A stretch of 64,000 nt of DNA, taken from positions 1 to 64,000 of the forward strand of contig WQXU01000003.1 in the NCBI GenBank assembly GCA_009781635.1, read 5' to 3'. The position numbers were made by a program, and so were the translations under genes. Within the stretch, counting starts at the first letter, position 1. The number at the start of each line of letters is the position of its first letter. Source of the stretch: Treponema sp. Lineage in GTDB: Bacteria; Spirochaetota; Spirochaetia; Treponematales; Breznakiellaceae. Positions 1 to 6,483 of this stretch are shown piece after piece. A model generated the notes under the pieces. It was given only the letters and a program-made list of their open reading frames with translations. It searched no databases and was not told the DNA's origin.

Positions 1-357
<357 letters not shown>

Positions 358-1116
358 ATGCAAAGAAAAGTTAAACGTATTGCAATTATAGCAATAGTTG
401 GATTTGTTGCAACAACCCTGTTAATAACAGGATGTGACAATGGCAACAAACCATGTTCTCACACTGGCGGAGCTGTCGCAACTTGTACGACTGCTCAAAC
501 CTGTACCAAATGCGGTGTTGTTATACAAGCCGCACTTGGGCATGATCATGTCAGCAGTCTAATCTGTAAAAGAACTGTATGTGACCATCAATATGCATTA
601 GGCGACCAAGGACCAGCAGGCGGAATAATCATATACCGTTTAGAAACTGGCTTTACAATGACCGATGATGATTCAACTGCCTATTATCTTGAAGCCGCGC
701 CTGCAAATATGCCAGAATTTCTAAGATGGTCAACTTTAACTTGGGGAGAATATGAAGCATCTGGATATGATAATTCGCTATGGATTGATATACCAGGAAC
801 AGGAACGGCTATTGGAACAGGAAGAAAAAACACCGCATTAATACTTGCCCTTGATCCGACAGCGCCTGCGGCGCTTGCTTGCAAAGATTATTTTACAGAA
901 GAATACGAAAGTTTTAATGACTGGTTCTTGCCAAGCAGAGACGAACTTAATCAGCTATATCTTAGGCGTGCTGATTTAGATTTATCGTCAGGTTGGTTCT
1001 GGTCTTCGTCGCAGGGCACCATCTTCTACGCGTGGGGTCAGAGTTTCGACATTGGCGATCAGGCCGGCAACTACAAGGACTACGACTTCAATGTCCGTGC
1101 AGTCCGGGCTTTTTAA
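358..1116 (+). CDS. DGR target: surface lipoprotein with DUF1566/FGE-like C-terminal domain
   Basis: This 252-residue protein has a lipoprotein signal peptide with lipobox LITGC (Cys26), so it should be exported and lipid-anchored. Residues 30-75 hold a Cys/His-rich segment (CSHTGG, CTKCG, GHDH, CDHQY) that may bind metal. Residues from about 85 form a DUF1566 or formylglycine-enzyme-like module with GPAGGIIIY, WFLPSRDEL and a terminal VRAVRAF, the C-type-lectin-like class of folds that DGRs diversify. Residues 213-250 are the variable repeat matching the downstream TR. Avd, TR and RT follow on the same strand. The ligand is unknown; by analogy with Treponema and Legionella DGR lipoproteins, a surface binding role is likely (inference). 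Start: ATG 358 with GAGG seven bases upstream. Confidence 0.9.
   Translation: MQRKVKRIAIIAIVGFVATTLLITGCDNGNKPCSHTGGAVATCTTAQTCTKCGVVIQAALGHDHVSSLICKRTVCDHQYALGDQGPAGGIIIYRLETGFTMTDDDSTAYYLEAAPANMPEFLRWSTLTWGEYEASGYDNSLWIDIPGTGTAIGTGRKNTALILALDPTAPAALACKDYFTEEYESFNDWFLPSRDELNQLYLRRADLDLSSGWFWSSSQGTIFYAWGQSFDIGDQAGNYKDYDFNVRAVRAF
994..1108 (+). repeat. DGR variable repeat (VR)
   Basis: This lies at the 3' end of the target gene and aligns without gaps to 1686-1800 (offset 692). From 997 to 1108 it differs from the TR at 19 positions, all adenine in the TR, with no difference at any C, G or T. Adding codon 994-996 (TGG against TR AAA) gives 22. The last 28 bases (1081-1108) carry only three changes and end in the GC-rich invariant segment GTCCGTGCAGTCCGGG, which should act as the IMH. 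The first non-adenine mismatches lie at 993 and 1109. Confidence 0.95.
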
Positions 1117-1140
1117 CTATTTAACCCTTTAACTATTTCA

Positions 1141-1160
1141 TTGCCGCCGCAAGGCGGCAA
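1141..1160 (+). promoter_or_regulatory. 8-bp stem / GCAA-loop hairpin just downstream of VR
   Basis: TTGCCGCC and GGCGGCAA form a perfect eight-base stem around GCAA, 32 bases after the VR end. DGR targets in other systems carry a hairpin or cruciform with eight-base stem and four-base loop downstream of the VR that stimulates mutagenic homing. The following AATTTTATTTTT would also let this act as an intrinsic terminator for the target gene. Both roles are inference. Confidence 0.7.
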
Positions 1161-1190
1161 AATTTTATTTTTGGAATTTAGGATATTATT

Positions 1191-1532
1191 TTGGCGTTGT
1201 ATTATGATTTACCAGTATTCAATGACACATATCGGCTAACCTTGAAAATATTTGAACTAACAAAAAACTTTTCAAGGGAATACAAATTTACATTGGGGCA
1301 GGATATGAAAAGAGATTGTTTAATGCTTGTTCGTAGTATTTATCGCGCTAATAAAAATAAAGAAAGGACGGTTTATTTGGAACAGTTTTTAGATGAATTT
1401 GAAGTTCTAAAATTAGAAATTCGTCTTTGCAAGGATCTGCATCTTATCACCATTAAACAACAGGCTCAGCTTGTTCTTGCTATGGACAGGATAGGAAAAC
1501 AGATAACGGGATGGCGTAACGCTTCGCGTTAA
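1191..1532 (+). CDS. avd: Avd-like DGR accessory variability determinant
   Basis: This 113-residue protein is predicted mostly helical, with the segment YKFTLGQDMKRD near residues 31-42, typical of the Avd / four-helix-bundle family (also related to S23-type proteins). Avd forms a pentameric barrel that binds the DGR reverse transcriptase and the TR RNA and is needed for mutagenic cDNA synthesis. The likely start is TTG 1191, because AGGAT lies about six bases upstream and no ATG occurs at a sensible N-terminus. It lies between target gene and TR, the usual arrangement in treponemal DGRs. The assignment rests on motif, size and position rather than on a search. Confidence 0.85.
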   Translation: MALYYDLPVFNDTYRLTLKIFELTKNFSREYKFTLGQDMKRDCLMLVRSIYRANKNKERTVYLEQFLDEFEVLKLEIRLCKDLHLITIKQQAQLVLAMDRIGKQITGWRNASR

Positions 1533-1645
1533 ACTTTCCTGTGCCAGATTTTCTTGTGTTACGGCATAAGAAAGCGAGCAAGGTTTTTGTGTAAAAGCGG
1601 TGCGGAAACCGACAGGCGCTTTTTGCCAAATCGGTACAGATAGCT

Positions 1646-1675
1646 GTGACGGGCAATCGTCCGTCTTGGTATAAT
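1646..1675 (+). promoter_or_regulatory. Candidate promoter for the TR RNA
   Basis: TATAAT at 1670-1675 is preceded by TGG, giving an extended -10. A weak -35 (GTGACG, 1646-1651) lies 18 bases upstream. The predicted transcript start near 1682 falls a few bases before the TR, so this could make a TR-RT transcript independent of the target gene. The wider stretch 1533-1685 contains no convincing gene. Confidence 0.5.
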
Positions 1676-1685
1676 ATCCGCACTG

Positions 1686-1800
1686 AAATTCTGGTCTTCG
1701 TCGCAGAACAACATCAACAACGCGTGGAATCAGAATTTCGACAATGGCAATCAGAACGACAACAACAAGAACAACGACAACAATGTCCGTGCAGTCCGGG
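1686..1800 (+). repeat. DGR template repeat (TR)
   Basis: This is a non-coding copy of the target's 3' end, rich in adenine. Read in the VR frame it is dominated by AAY (Asn) codons interspersed with fixed codons: KFWSSSQNNINNAWN, then QNFDNGNQNDNNKNNDNN, then VRAVRGF. AAY codons can reach 15 amino acids by adenine mutagenesis without creating a stop. The boundaries are set by the first non-adenine mismatches (1685 and 1801). An open frame crossing the TR is incidental. Confidence 0.95.
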
Positions 1801-1816
1801 GTTTTACACAAAGCAA

Positions 1817-1860
1817 ACAGGATTAAATCCTGTGGGGTTATCTGAGAATTCGGATAACCC
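1817..1860 (+). other. Two tandem hairpins between TR and reverse transcriptase
   Basis: 1817-1833 folds as ACAGGAT-TAA-ATCCTGT and 1835-1860 as GGGTTATC...GATAACCC with a ten-base loop, followed by TTTCTTTTT. DGR template RNAs need structured sequence downstream of the TR to prime and guide cDNA synthesis, so these may be part of that RNA. The second hairpin with its T-rich tail could also be a terminator or attenuator before the RT gene. Confidence 0.6.
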
Positions 1861-1878
1861 TTTCTTTTTGGAATTAAA

Positions 1879-3087
1879 ATGCAGTTAGAACTATTTGATT
1901 ATAAAATACCTCTTGAAGACATTTTTGCCGCATATTACGAATGCCGTAAAAACAAACGTAATAAAATCGGCGCATTGCAATTTGAAGTTGATTTAGAAAA
2001 AAACCTTGTTGAATTATGGGAAGAAATTAATTCTGGAACATGGCAGCCGCGCCCATCAACGGTATTTATAGTTGAAAAACCTGTAACTCGTGAAATATTC
2101 GCTGCCGCTTTTCGGGATAGAATCGTACATCATTTGGTTATTGGCAGATTAAATCACCTTTTTGAAAAACATTTTATTTATGACAGTTATTCATGCAGAA
2201 TGGGTAAAGGCACTCACTTTGGCGTTTCACGCGCAGCGCGGTTTATCCGCAGGACAGAACCAGCCGCCGAGCGAGCATTTGTGAGCGAGGGTTCCCGCTC
2301 GGTACCGTCATGGGTACTTAAAATAGATATTCGCGGCTACTTTATGAGTATTAACAGAATAATACTCTATAATAAACTGGAATTATTTATAAATGAACGA
2401 TACAACGAACCAGATAAAGAGCGAATAAAAGACCTTTGCCGTATTATTGTATTTAATGAACCTGTAAAAAATTGTATTTATCACAGCCCTATGGCTTTAT
2501 GGGATAAACTTCCTAAAGATAAAAGCTTGTTTACTGCGCGTCAAGACTGCGGTCTTCCAATTGGCAATTTAACAAGCCAAGTGCTCGCAAATTATTACCT
2601 GACTTGTTTTGATCATTTCATAAAAAAAGATTGCGGAATTTTAAATTATGGACGTTATGTAGATGACTGCATTTTTGTACACCACTCTCGTACTTTTCTG
2701 AAAAACCTTATCCCAAGAATCAAAGAATATTTATGGAATAATTTAGGACTTACGGTTCATTCAAAGAAAATATATCTGCAACCCTGCCAAAACGGGGTTA
2801 AGTTTTTAGGTTGTTTTATTAAGCCGTCTCATATAGTTACCAATCACAGAACCATTACAAATTTTAAACAATCTGTTGTTTTTCATAATAATATTGCTTT
2901 AGATCATAAACCGGATAAAGAAGAACGGAACTCTTTTATTTCTTCAATTAATTCGTATTTGGGAATATTGAAACATTATAAAACTTACAAGAAAAGGAAA
3001 CATATAGCCAAATATTTAATATCACCTCTTTGGTTTAAACATACGTTTATTCCAAGCATGGAATTTGGGAAAATTGTTAAGAAATAG
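1879..3087 (+). CDS. DGR reverse transcriptase
   Basis: This 402-residue reverse transcriptase has motif A as KIDIRGYF (Asp150), the DGR-specific motif IGNLTSQ at 228-234 in place of the retroviral/group II QGxxxSP, and the catalytic YVDD at 260-263. The DGR enzyme makes cDNA from the TR RNA and misincorporates at adenines. The product then replaces the VR. It starts at ATG 1879, 78 bases after the TR, and no transposase or intron features flank it. Residues 130-142, just before motif A, are encoded by a palindromic GC-rich insert (2267-2302) that looks acquired. Reading frame and catalytic residues are intact, so the enzyme is probably active. Confidence 0.95.
   Translation: MQLELFDYKIPLEDIFAAYYECRKNKRNKIGALQFEVDLEKNLVELWEEINSGTWQPRPSTVFIVEKPVTREIFAAAFRDRIVHHLVIGRLNHLFEKHFIYDSYSCRMGKGTHFGVSRAARFIRRTEPAAERAFVSEGSRSVPSWVLKIDIRGYFMSINRIILYNKLELFINERYNEPDKERIKDLCRIIVFNEPVKNCIYHSPMALWDKLPKDKSLFTARQDCGLPIGNLTSQVLANYYLTCFDHFIKKDCGILNYGRYVDDCIFVHHSRTFLKNLIPRIKEYLWNNLGLTVHSKKIYLQPCQNGVKFLGCFIKPSHIVTNHRTITNFKQSVVFHNNIALDHKPDKEERNSFISSINSYLGILKHYKTYKKRKHIAKYLISPLWFKHTFIPSMEFGKIVKK
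2267..2302. repeat. REP-like palindromic insert inside the RT gene
   Basis: CCGAGCG and CGCTCGG arms surround a GC-rich core with a repeated GAGCGAG/GAGCGAGG word. The composition contrasts with the AT-rich gene around it, and the insert keeps the reading frame. It resembles short intragenic palindromic repeats known from other bacteria. Only this copy was seen in the window. Confidence 0.5.
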
Positions 3088-3252: not shown

Positions 3253-6200
3253 TCATGATTGATTATATTCAAATGTACATTTAGAAAAATCCTTTTTTTT
3301 CAAATCATTTTTATTTATTATTACACTTTGACAGCCTTCTTCCATATAATCTTCCCCTATCTGTAAAAGTATAATATTGTTTTTATCTTCCATAAATTCA
3401 ATAACTTCATCTTCTGATGCATTGCAATTTGAATAAATACCGTAGATTTTTGACATTTCACATCCTGCAGAATAATCCCATTCTTTTTCTTCATATTCAT
3501 CTTCATCATCATCATATTCTTCTTCAATGTACCTTGATTCAATATTTTCTGTTTCCATTTTATAACCCTTAATTATTTTACCCATAAAACATTGATCTTC
3601 ATGTATTTTTGTTATTCTTTTTAAGGATTGAATGTTTTTAGATGAGTAAAAAACTTGGCAATTTTCTAAATTATGATCTACAAAGAAAAAGATAAAACCG
3701 GTTTCCGGTAAAAGCCCGATTTTATCAAAAGGTTTTATTTCTGAACAATTTAATTGTGCCATAAAAAAATAGTCTTCCGGATATTTTATATCATCAGGTA
3801 AATCAACTACTGGTCCGCCAATTCTTGAACATCCTAAAGGAATATCAGTTTCCAAATAATTGTCATATTCATCAAATCCATCAGAATTATTTTTTGCTTC
3901 ATATCCCCTCTTCGAAAGAACTAATCTGATTAGATCATAATTATCTGCAGATTCTTTGGTCTGTTTTAATTCAACTATATCTTCAACTTTAATTTTAACT
4001 TTTTCGTCAAACACCGAATTTATCTCGCCTTTAGCCGCAAGTTTTATGTTCTTGCCCAAAGTAACGCTGGTAAACTCATTATCTAAAAACGCTCCCTTCC
4101 CAATCAAAGTGACATTTACCGGAATAACCAGCTGCTTGATACCGTTGCTCCTGAACGCGTCTTCCCCTATTTCGATAACACTTGCGGGTATGATTAAACT
4201 TACAATCTTATTATACGCAAATCCGCCAAGATGAGTGAGGCTATTGGGAATTGTAATATTTGTTATATTGTTTTCGCAAAAGGCATCTTTTTCGATTTCT
4301 TTTACACTGTCGGGAATTGCCGCACTGGTAAGTTTATTATAAGCAAAAGCATTTTTTCCAATCCTGGTAACACTATTGGGAATTGTAATATTTGTAAGCT
4401 CGTTCCTTCTAAATCCATTCAGGGAAATAACGCTGTTTGGAATCGTTAGACTTGTTAGTTTATTATTTGCGAACGCATCTTTTCCGATTTTTGTAACGCT
4501 GTCAGGAATTGTTAAACTTGTCAGTTTATTTTCCAAAAACGCATCTTCTTCTATCTCTTTGACACTGTCAGGAATAGTTAAACTGGTTATCTGGTTTCTG
4601 TTAAAGCCGCCAAGAGAGGTAACACTTTTTGGAATTGATATACCGGTAAATTTATTATCCTCAAATGCGCATTTCTCGATGCAAGTAACAGTTTCAGGGA
4701 TTGTAACCTTAGAAAGTTTATTGCCGCCAAAACCGTTAAGGGATGCAATGCCTCTGCCGATTGTTACGTTTGTCAGTTGATTGCCGGAAAAAGCGGCAAA
4801 CTCAATATACTTAACGTTGTCAGGTATAACTATACTTGTTAACTCGTTTTGCATAAACGCCATCCTTGCGATCCTTTCAACGCTGCCGCCAAGTTTAAGG
4901 TTATTAAGATCGTTTTGCGAAAAAGCGTGTTCTCCGATTGTTTTAACTTTACCGGGTATTACAATATCTCTTTTTGTTGTCTTCCCAAACGATTTATTAA
5001 ACGCATTCTTTCCGATATTAACAAGGCTATCCGGCAGCGTTAAACTATTTAGTTCGTTTTGCGCAAACGCCCTGTCTCCTATCTCGACAAGGGAGTTTGG
5101 AAACGTAATATCAGTAAGTTTCTTTTTTTCAAACGCGGCAAAACCGATACCGGAAATTGGAGTTCCCTGTATTTGTTCGGGGATTTTTACAGCTCCGCCT
5201 TTTCCTGTGTATTCATTGATTATCAAAGATCTTGCGTCTGCGGATAATTCAACCTTGTACTCTCCATGTATACTTCTGTTTGCTTCAAATGCGTTTTCAC
5301 CGAGAGTAACATTATTGCCGTATTTAACGTTTGCAAGGCTGTTTTTCTTAAACGCCAAAGCGCCGATTGATGAAACACTGTCAGGAATAACAACGCTTGG
5401 CAACTGGTTGGCTTCAAACGCTCTATCGCCGATACTCGTTACATTCTTACCGATTGTAAGACTTGTTAGCTTGTTTTCGTAAAAAGCTTCTTTTCCAATA
5501 TTTGTAACGCCGTTTCCAATTACAGCCGAAACAAGAGCGTTTTTCTCAAACGCATCGCTTTCAATAATTGTTACGCTGTCTGGAATCGTGATATTTGCAA
5601 GGGCGTTTTTCTCAAACGAACGTTCGCCGATGCGTGTTACGCTTTTGGGAATATCAATACTTGTAAGCTGGTTTTCCGCAAACGAGCTTTTATGGATATT
5701 CGTAACAGTACCGGGTATTACAATACTATTAAGTTTCTTTCTGAAAAACGCAAAATCTCCAATCTCTGTGACAGGCAGATCCAAAAACTGTATTGGAATA
5801 TCTACAGAGCCGCCCTTTCCGTGATATTCGTAAATTTTTATGGAATTGCCGGCATTAGACCGGATTACTTCAAACTCGTAATCGCCTTCTTTCTTTCTGG
5901 TATCGGTAAGAGCATCAACTGCAGCCGCGCTCTCCGTTTTTATCGGATTCTCGCCAAACGCATCCTGCCCTATATCTTTTACGCTTTTTGGAATATCTAT
6001 ATTTGTTATTTTGTTTTTATAGAATGCTCTTCTGGCAATAGCGGTAACGCTGTCGGGGATAATTACGCTTGTAAGTTGATTTTCTGAAAACGCAGTTTGT
6101 CCGATTTTTGTAACGCTGCCGGGAATTATAATACTTGTAAGATTCCTTCGCATAAATGCGCCATTGCCGATTTCTGTAACAGGTTTTCCTTGTATTAACG

Positions 6201-6483
6201 AAGGAATTTGAATATCAGTTTTATCACCCCAGTATCTCTTTATCGTTATAGAGCCGCTTTGCTCTTCAAACTCAAAACCGTCTATTCTGTTTTCTTCTGT
6301 TTGCGGCTGTGCCGTAGCTTGCTGCGCCGGGACTTGTTTTGCCATGATATCTCGTATGCTTTCCCAGTAAGCGGCAGTACCGGCATTAGGCGCTTTTGCG
6401 TAGCTATCCATTACTGTTTTTGCGATTGGTTCGGGATAGATGGATGTTATAAGGGTTTCTACTTCTTTTTTAATTTGTTCCAT
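3253..6483 (-). CDS. BspA-like leucine-rich-repeat protein with DUF1963-like C-terminus
   Basis: This 1,076-residue protein has about 29 units of a 22-residue LRR (pattern VTxIGxxAFxxNxLTSLTIPxS) between residues 80 and 820, the treponemal BspA/TpLRR type. The repeats fall in three blocks, each introduced by a beta-rich spacer (EFE...SIxIxxYxGKGGxVxIP). Four units are 20-residue variants with SLxGFxxN. The last 200 residues contain GGxxxxPxDxxYPxDYFFMAQLN and GFIFFFV, typical of DUF1963/YwqG. BspA proteins usually mediate protein or host-surface binding, but this one has no signal peptide or lipobox, so location is unclear. The start ATG is supported by AAAGGA five bases upstream. The repeats make the gene prone to length variation. 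Confidence 0.85.
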   Translation of the reverse strand: MEQIKKEVETLITSIYPEPIAKTVMDSYAKAPNAGTAAYWESIRDIMAKQVPAQQATAQPQTEENRIDGFEFEEQSGSITIKRYWGDKTDIQIPSLIQGKPVTEIGNGAFMRRNLTSIIIPGSVTKIGQTAFSENQLTSVIIPDSVTAIARRAFYKNKITNIDIPKSVKDIGQDAFGENPIKTESAAAVDALTDTRKKEGDYEFEVIRSNAGNSIKIYEYHGKGGSVDIPIQFLDLPVTEIGDFAFFRKKLNSIVIPGTVTNIHKSSFAENQLTSIDIPKSVTRIGERSFEKNALANITIPDSVTIIESDAFEKNALVSAVIGNGVTNIGKEAFYENKLTSLTIGKNVTSIGDRAFEANQLPSVVIPDSVSSIGALAFKKNSLANVKYGNNVTLGENAFEANRSIHGEYKVELSADARSLIINEYTGKGGAVKIPEQIQGTPISGIGFAAFEKKKLTDITFPNSLVEIGDRAFAQNELNSLTLPDSLVNIGKNAFNKSFGKTTKRDIVIPGKVKTIGEHAFSQNDLNNLKLGGSVERIARMAFMQNELTSIVIPDNVKYIEFAAFSGNQLTNVTIGRGIASLNGFGGNKLSKVTIPETVTCIEKCAFEDNKFTGISIPKSVTSLGGFNRNQITSLTIPDSVKEIEEDAFLENKLTSLTIPDSVTKIGKDAFANNKLTSLTIPNSVISLNGFRRNELTNITIPNSVTRIGKNAFAYNKLTSAAIPDSVKEIEKDAFCENNITNITIPNSLTHLGGFAYNKIVSLIIPASVIEIGEDAFRSNGIKQLVIPVNVTLIGKGAFLDNEFTSVTLGKNIKLAAKGEINSVFDEKVKIKVEDIVELKQTKESADNYDLIRLVLSKRGYEAKNNSDGFDEYDNYLETDIPLGCSRIGGPVVDLPDDIKYPEDYFFMAQLNCSEIKPFDKIGLLPETGFIFFFVDHNLENCQVFYSSKNIQSLKRITKIHEDQCFMGKIIKGYKMETENIESRYIEEEYDDDEDEYEEKEWDYSAGCEMSKIYGIYSNCNASEDEVIEFMEDKNNIILLQIGEDYMEEGCQSVIINKNDLKKKDFSKCTFEYNQS

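Follow-up and report, generated by a model that had tools for sequence, protein, structure and literature searches.

Evidence for a multi-target, lipoprotein-diversifying retroelement in a Treponema genome and for predicted stems at both ends of DGR template RNAs

The locus at positions 358 to 3087 raises the question of whether a complete diversity-generating retroelement (DGR) is diversifying, or recently diversified, lipoproteins of this Treponema and how mutagenesis may be confined to its TR. The source genome comprises 2.77 Mb in 51 contigs and is 99.3% complete; the window, meaning the whole stretch of DNA analysed, is the initial 64 kb of contig 3. All features of the cassette are on the plus strand. 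An intact ORF (358-1116) encodes a lipoprotein of 252 aa, hereafter target 1, with the lipobox LITG-C and a C-terminal Lcl_C domain that holds VR1 (997-1108). It is followed by an intact ORF with a TTG start (1191-1532) encoding the accessory protein Avd of 113 aa, by TR (1689-1800), and by an intact ORF (1879-3087) encoding a DGR-type reverse transcriptase (RT) of 402 aa. The preliminary description of a complete DGR on one strand, with target lipoprotein, Avd, TR and RT all present, holds at every coordinate. A prophage setting was considered and rejected, the neighbouring genes being read by us as housekeeping (hydrogenase and NADH-dehydrogenase-like subunits, a permease and DeoC). The best explanation for the locus is a lipoprotein-diversifying, multi-target DGR, to which a probability of roughly 0.93 is assigned.

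The TR and VR1 align without gaps over 112 bases and differ at 19 positions, comprising nine A>G, eight A>T and two A>C changes. All 19 fall on TR adenines, so that the adenine-only pattern reported earlier is borne out to the base; with 40 adenines among the 112 bases of TR, the chance of 19 random differences all falling on A is 9.4e-11. The sole TR codon in which adenine-only changes can yield a stop, AAG, is unaltered both in VR1 and in a second variable repeat, VR2, described below. A search of both strands of the 64-kb window revealed no VR besides VR1.

The RT matched the RVT_1 profile (E=3e-14) and carries the IGNLTSQ and YVDD motifs of the DGR type (patterns [ILV]GxxxSQ and YxDD) within the intact ORF, as previously noted, while Avd matched Pfam bAvd (E=2.2e-21) and the PHROG Avd protein of DGR (E=2.5e-26). 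Among solved structures, the RT was closest to 8ub7 (E=1.7e-27), which we take to be the BPP-1 DGR RT, an identification that agrees with the alignment to the BPP-1 RT; the runner-up was a retron-type RT (7e-7). Arg74 and Ile181 of the BPP-1 RT matter for adenine errors, and correspond to R71 and I228 of the present RT, residues invariant in 11 RTs. Since the BPP-1 RT is the nearest solved relative and the sequence neighbours of the RT sit in other cassettes with A-only TR/VR differences, the enzyme is assigned to the DGR class. The nearest named relatives, with 76% and 72% identity, belong to Treponema sp. MAGs that are presumably termite-gut genomes, judging from the isolate names. A single RT of the DGR kind was found in the 99.3%-complete genome. 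That the RT belongs to a retron, a group II intron or a defence system and lies beside an ordinary duplicated repeat is refuted: weak NCBIfam matches to group II, retron and DRT models (all far under the curated cut-offs) and PADLOC matches to generic RT and DRT are outweighed by A-only TR/VR differences in two targets and in relatives, by the adjoining Avd and by the BPP-1 RT as nearest solved structure.

A search of the genome for other VRs by alignment with TR, proposed in the preliminary description, identified one remote VR in a different lipoprotein gene on a different contig. This repeat, VR2, is located on the minus strand of contig 42 (8174 down to 8063) at the 3' end of a lipoprotein-like ORF of 335 aa; other Lcl_C-type paralogues in the genome were without a close match to TR. 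VR2 differs from TR by 21 changes, of which 20 affect TR adenines and the remaining one is C>T. Both VRs finish just short of the stop codon of their lipoprotein gene, and the two target genes have in common a 5' leader of about 100 bp. In the 396 bp preceding the VR the target genes differ at 47 positions (12%), whereas VR1 and VR2 differ at one of 72 non-A positions (binomial P=0.0012 against the flank) and at 20 of 40 A positions. Since the flanks are 12% apart but the VRs match at 71 of the 72 non-A positions, the results indicate homing after duplication, the simplest reading being that TR sequence was copied over both VRs after the target genes had separated.

On the evidence of these repeats, the DGR is very probably active or was so recently. 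The earlier claim of active or recent diversification is thereby supported indirectly, by VRs that have been kept matched to TR at all but one non-A position; the surface protein of the accompanying claim is a putative one, judged by its lipobox. The Lcl_C match of target 1 (E=8.7e-8) is 2 bits below the Pfam cut-off, and an AlphaFold model of the target domain built with 10 aligned relatives had a pLDDT of 41, too low to be used for assigning a CLec fold.

Complete cassettes with unchanged gene order were found in three related genomes, G009, G013 and G156. The cis VR of G009 shows 18 A changes and no non-A change, a clean remote VR shows 15 and none, and a third VR has a 6-nt in-frame deletion. 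The cis VR of G013 shows 14 A changes and one non-A change. The same genome also contains older VR-like genes, several of which carry 5-11 non-A changes and one a frameshift. The locus of a further genome, G119, has decayed, with the start of Avd running into the second half of the RT, and no TR was found there. Overall, the distribution is patchy, with a DGR in 3 of 40 genomes of the genus and in 13 of 393 sampled genomes of the phylum.

The patchy distribution and the decayed copy in G119 would also be expected if the DGR were now inactive, the TR/VR signature being old and the RT damaged by a palindromic insert. The insert is in-frame, about 10-15 aa long, lies between motif 2 and the catalytic Asp, is missing from the relatives and could weaken the RT. 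A second genomic copy of the insert, sought with a repeated element in mind, was not found. Present inactivity is nevertheless considered unlikely, as the RT frame and all RT motifs, Avd and TR are intact and the agreement of VR1 with VR2 at non-A positions stands against the divergence of their flanks. The reading of an active or recently active DGR is consequently preferred.

The 3' ends of the repeats are marked. TR ends in GTCCGTGCAGTCCGGG, an IMH*-like end, and all four TRs read CGGGG followed by TTTTACAC, whereas the VRs, including the remote ones, read CGGGC followed by TTTTTAAC. The G found in four of four TRs versus the C of the VRs, immediately after GTCCGGG, is on sequence grounds the distinction between IMH* and IMH. 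Beyond VR1, outside the TR homology, is a candidate target-site element, TTTTTAACNNTTTAACCCTTTAACTATT (1110-1137), which begins at the target stop codon. It occurs once in the present genome, three times in G009, twice in G013 and not at all in G156, and every occurrence in these four genomes is at the end of a VR-type target gene; the reversed pattern, used as a control, gave 0 occurrences in the same genomes. VR2 carries the element with a 10-bp gap. Since TTTTTAACNNTTTAACCCTTTAACTATT is outside the TR homology, like the downstream region that BPP-1 requires (PMC3240598), it may belong to the target site; the alternative is shared ancestry of the gene ends. About 33 bp past VR1 is a GC hairpin, TTGCCGCC-GCAA-GGCGGCAA (1141-1160), with an 8-bp stem, a candidate terminator and/or target hairpin. 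In BPP-1, a hairpin with a GRNA loop downstream of VR helps target choice; the loop of the present hairpin is GCAA and not GRNA. As a GC hairpin is absent after VR2 and after the clean remote VR of G009, that following VR1 may be just a terminator.

A stretch of about 33 nt upstream of TR is nearly unchanged across four genomes, and RNAalifold predicted a folded domain in this region. A helix closing TR, P1, is predicted to form between TTTTGTGTAAAA (1585-1596), a segment about 104 nt upstream of TR and invariant in four related genomes, and TTTTACACAAAG (1802-1813) at the TR 3' junction. A second predicted helix, P2, pairs CGGTGCGGA (1598-1606) with TCCGCACTG (1677-1685), the 3' arm ending 3 nt ahead of TR. 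Nested inside P2 are hairpins P3 (1608-1635, with arms 1608-1612 and 1631-1635 that include covarying pairs) and P4 (1648-1665, GACGGGC-AATC-GTCCGTC). Compensatory double changes were found in 18 of 40 pairs across five spirochaete sequences. Two stem-loops (1817-1861, MFE z=-5.1) occupy the spacer between TR and RT, the second of which was terminator-like in a terminator scan. Searching the 64-kb window with Rfam at the gathering threshold returned 0 matches. A TATAAT-like box (1670-1675) was rejected as a promoter for TR on finding that it is not kept in relatives. A review from 2022 describes conserved structure in the RNA trailing TR (PMC8867640), whereas the larger predicted domain here is upstream of TR.

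In order to compare P1 and P2 across DGR loci, a search based on an RT alignment was conducted that yielded 80 virus contigs and additional spirochaetes; two scans of viral contigs with other RTs found no relatives. An A-biased TR/VR pair was present at 87 of 111 loci, with references counted in. TR 3' ends were assigned by script and some were hand-corrected. For P1, 20-nt windows around the TR 3' end were each paired with the upstream segment, and the score of the best helix was set against a null in which partners were swapped between loci. With 31 sequence clusters, the pairing excess peaked around the TR 3' junction (z=6.06 at -6 and 6.13 at 0), did not reach significance at -60 to -18 or +24 to +36, and showed a weaker rise at +48 to +60 (z 2.0-2.8). 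Most of the upstream-arm signal fell between -110 and -50 (z 4.4-5.0); further upstream it was weaker (z up to 2.7). When P2 was tested separately on 39 loci the result was z=8.6, compared with 0.6-2.9 for shifted controls. Tested jointly on 60 loci, P1 gave z=7.2 and P2 z=8.2 against swapped partners, although these loci include related sequences and are not fully independent, the 31-cluster test being the stricter one. In the 60-locus test z fell to 0.75 for P1 and 1.8 for P2 at VR, and to 0.3-1.3 after shifting by +200 and -150.

The arms are unlike one another in sequence, as in L033 (TTTGAAAAG with CTTTTCAAA), L037 (ATCAATCC with GGATTGGT), L040 (ATATAGTTC with GAACTATAT) and L172 (AGGAGTGA with TCACTCCT). 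Since the arm sequences are wholly different between loci, it is the pairing and not the sequence that is conserved. P1 alone was below p=0.05 against junction shuffles in 20 of 77 loci and is not convincing at every locus. Minimum free energy folding of single sequences recovered P1 together with P2 in 21 of 69 loci, where about 10 were expected, and P1 in 56 of 69 against 54 expected from shuffled sequences. Thermodynamic folding alone is therefore weak support for the two helices, and reliance was placed on the partner-swap tests because the MFE counts of P1 fail to discriminate. Judged from the sequence comparisons, predicted stems that are common to distant microbes probably fix both ends of the template RNA.

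It is conceivable, albeit improbable, that the P1/P2 pairing does not scaffold a template RNA at all and instead reflects, for example, attenuation of transcription between avd and the RT gene or a structure at the DNA level. A terminator-like hairpin does lie between TR and RT, and the role assigned to the helices is inferred; set against this, the helices recur at both TR edges in loci unrelated in sequence and were not found at VR. A scaffold of the template RNA is thus the favoured interpretation of the pairing.

The prototype DGR, that of Bordetella phage BPP-1 (Avd, TR, bRT and Mtd), is like the present DGR in the order Avd-TR-RT, the DGR-type RT, the marked TR/VR 3' ends and A-only change. 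Unlike BPP-1, the present element is chromosomal, has lipoprotein targets and has a spacer of 78 nt between TR and RT, compared with 144 nt. P1 is at the TR 3' junction here, whereas BPP-1 is without P1 at that position; its strongest pairing is between avd at -71 and the spacer at +64 to +79. The TR 3' end of BPP-1 can also pair with the spacer at about +47 to +53, presumably near the priming adenosine A56. An adenine in the spacer has been described as the primer, and a stop signal as lying in avd (PMC12875486). We tentatively suggest, while regarding it as somewhat less than an even chance, that DGR template RNAs of Spirochaetota, Bacteroidota, Patescibacteria and virus contigs generally share the P1/P2 scaffold, with the P1 upstream arm usually 50-110 nt before TR, the P2 3' arm just before TR, and BPP-1 as an exception in which the corresponding pairing has moved into the long downstream spacer.

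By homology with BPP-1, the RT-Avd complex would make errors at adenines while copying the TR transcript. The cDNA so mutated would take the place of VR1, in the adjacent lipoprotein gene (cis), and of VR2, in the lipoprotein gene on contig 42 (trans), each VR being at the 3' end of its gene. The G of IMH* in TR versus the C of IMH in VR would be expected to hold the flow of information one-way. In the proposed scaffold, P1 would join the TR 3' junction to the upstream segment and P2 would end at the TR 5' edge, leaving TR as the loop between them; P1 would then position IMH* for the start of cDNA and P2 would stop synthesis.

The targets resemble those of several known systems. The DGR of Legionella reportedly diversifies a surface lipoprotein, LdtA (cited in PMC8144416), and resembles the present one in its type of target. 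The Lcl_C domain was formerly named DUF1566. DGR variable proteins of the DUF1566/Lcl_C type are known from human microbiomes (PMC4159848) and have the same C-terminal variable domain family, although host and environment differ. The DGR of Treponema denticola has TvpA and up to eight targets (Nimkulrat et al. 2016, PMC4891356). The two treponeme elements are alike in having one TR and RT, core and remote lipoprotein targets, an accessory gene and differences mostly at TR adenines; the present one is from a different treponeme lineage, has two clear TR-matched targets and has a target domain that matches Lcl_C. Multi-target lipoprotein DGRs are already known from T. denticola, and the present element adds one more, providing a clean example for a treponeme lineage of insect guts. 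That one TR has a target in cis and another in trans amounts to a natural experiment on what makes a target. The broader comparison matters more than the single element: the edge helices suggest a testable principle by which a DGR could restrict mutagenesis to TR, and P1 and P2 provide a means of locating TR ends and of identifying the RNAs of DGRs by sequence alone.

The gene for the target lipoprotein in the window and that for a second lipoprotein of the same genome, which carries the remote VR2 (L022), have in common a 5' leader of about 100 bp (window 260-360; L022 about 9135-9035, minus strand) within which small hairpins are present. The first 84 bases of the contig itself (window 1-84) are a (CT)n run, possibly an artefact of the assembly end. 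Downstream of VR2 is GTCCGTGTAGTACGAAGTTT (L022 about 8023-7998, minus strand), which can be translated as VRVVRSF and is likely the remnant of an older gene end encoding Lcl_C, the C-terminal target domain holding the VR. Adjoining the DGR on the minus strand is the gene for a 1076-aa protein (window 3253-6483) that, judged from its translation, presumably consists of BspA-like leucine-rich repeats.

In the RT, the stretch from motif 2 to the catalytic Asp contains an in-frame palindromic insert of about 10-15 aa (window 2265-2306); the insert is absent from relatives and no second copy was found in the genome.

In the decayed DGR of a related genome (L056 1310-2191) the Avd start and the second half of an RT form a single fused reading frame, and no TR/VR pair was found at this locus. 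A remote VR of G013 (L110), a relative with a complete cassette, is an inactivated target, the frame being shifted by a 1-base insertion at the VR end ahead of the post-VR element. At two other loci (L102 and L055) TR and VR are distinguished by in-frame 6-nt indels within the (AAC)n run, a result suggesting slippage in the TR or during copying.
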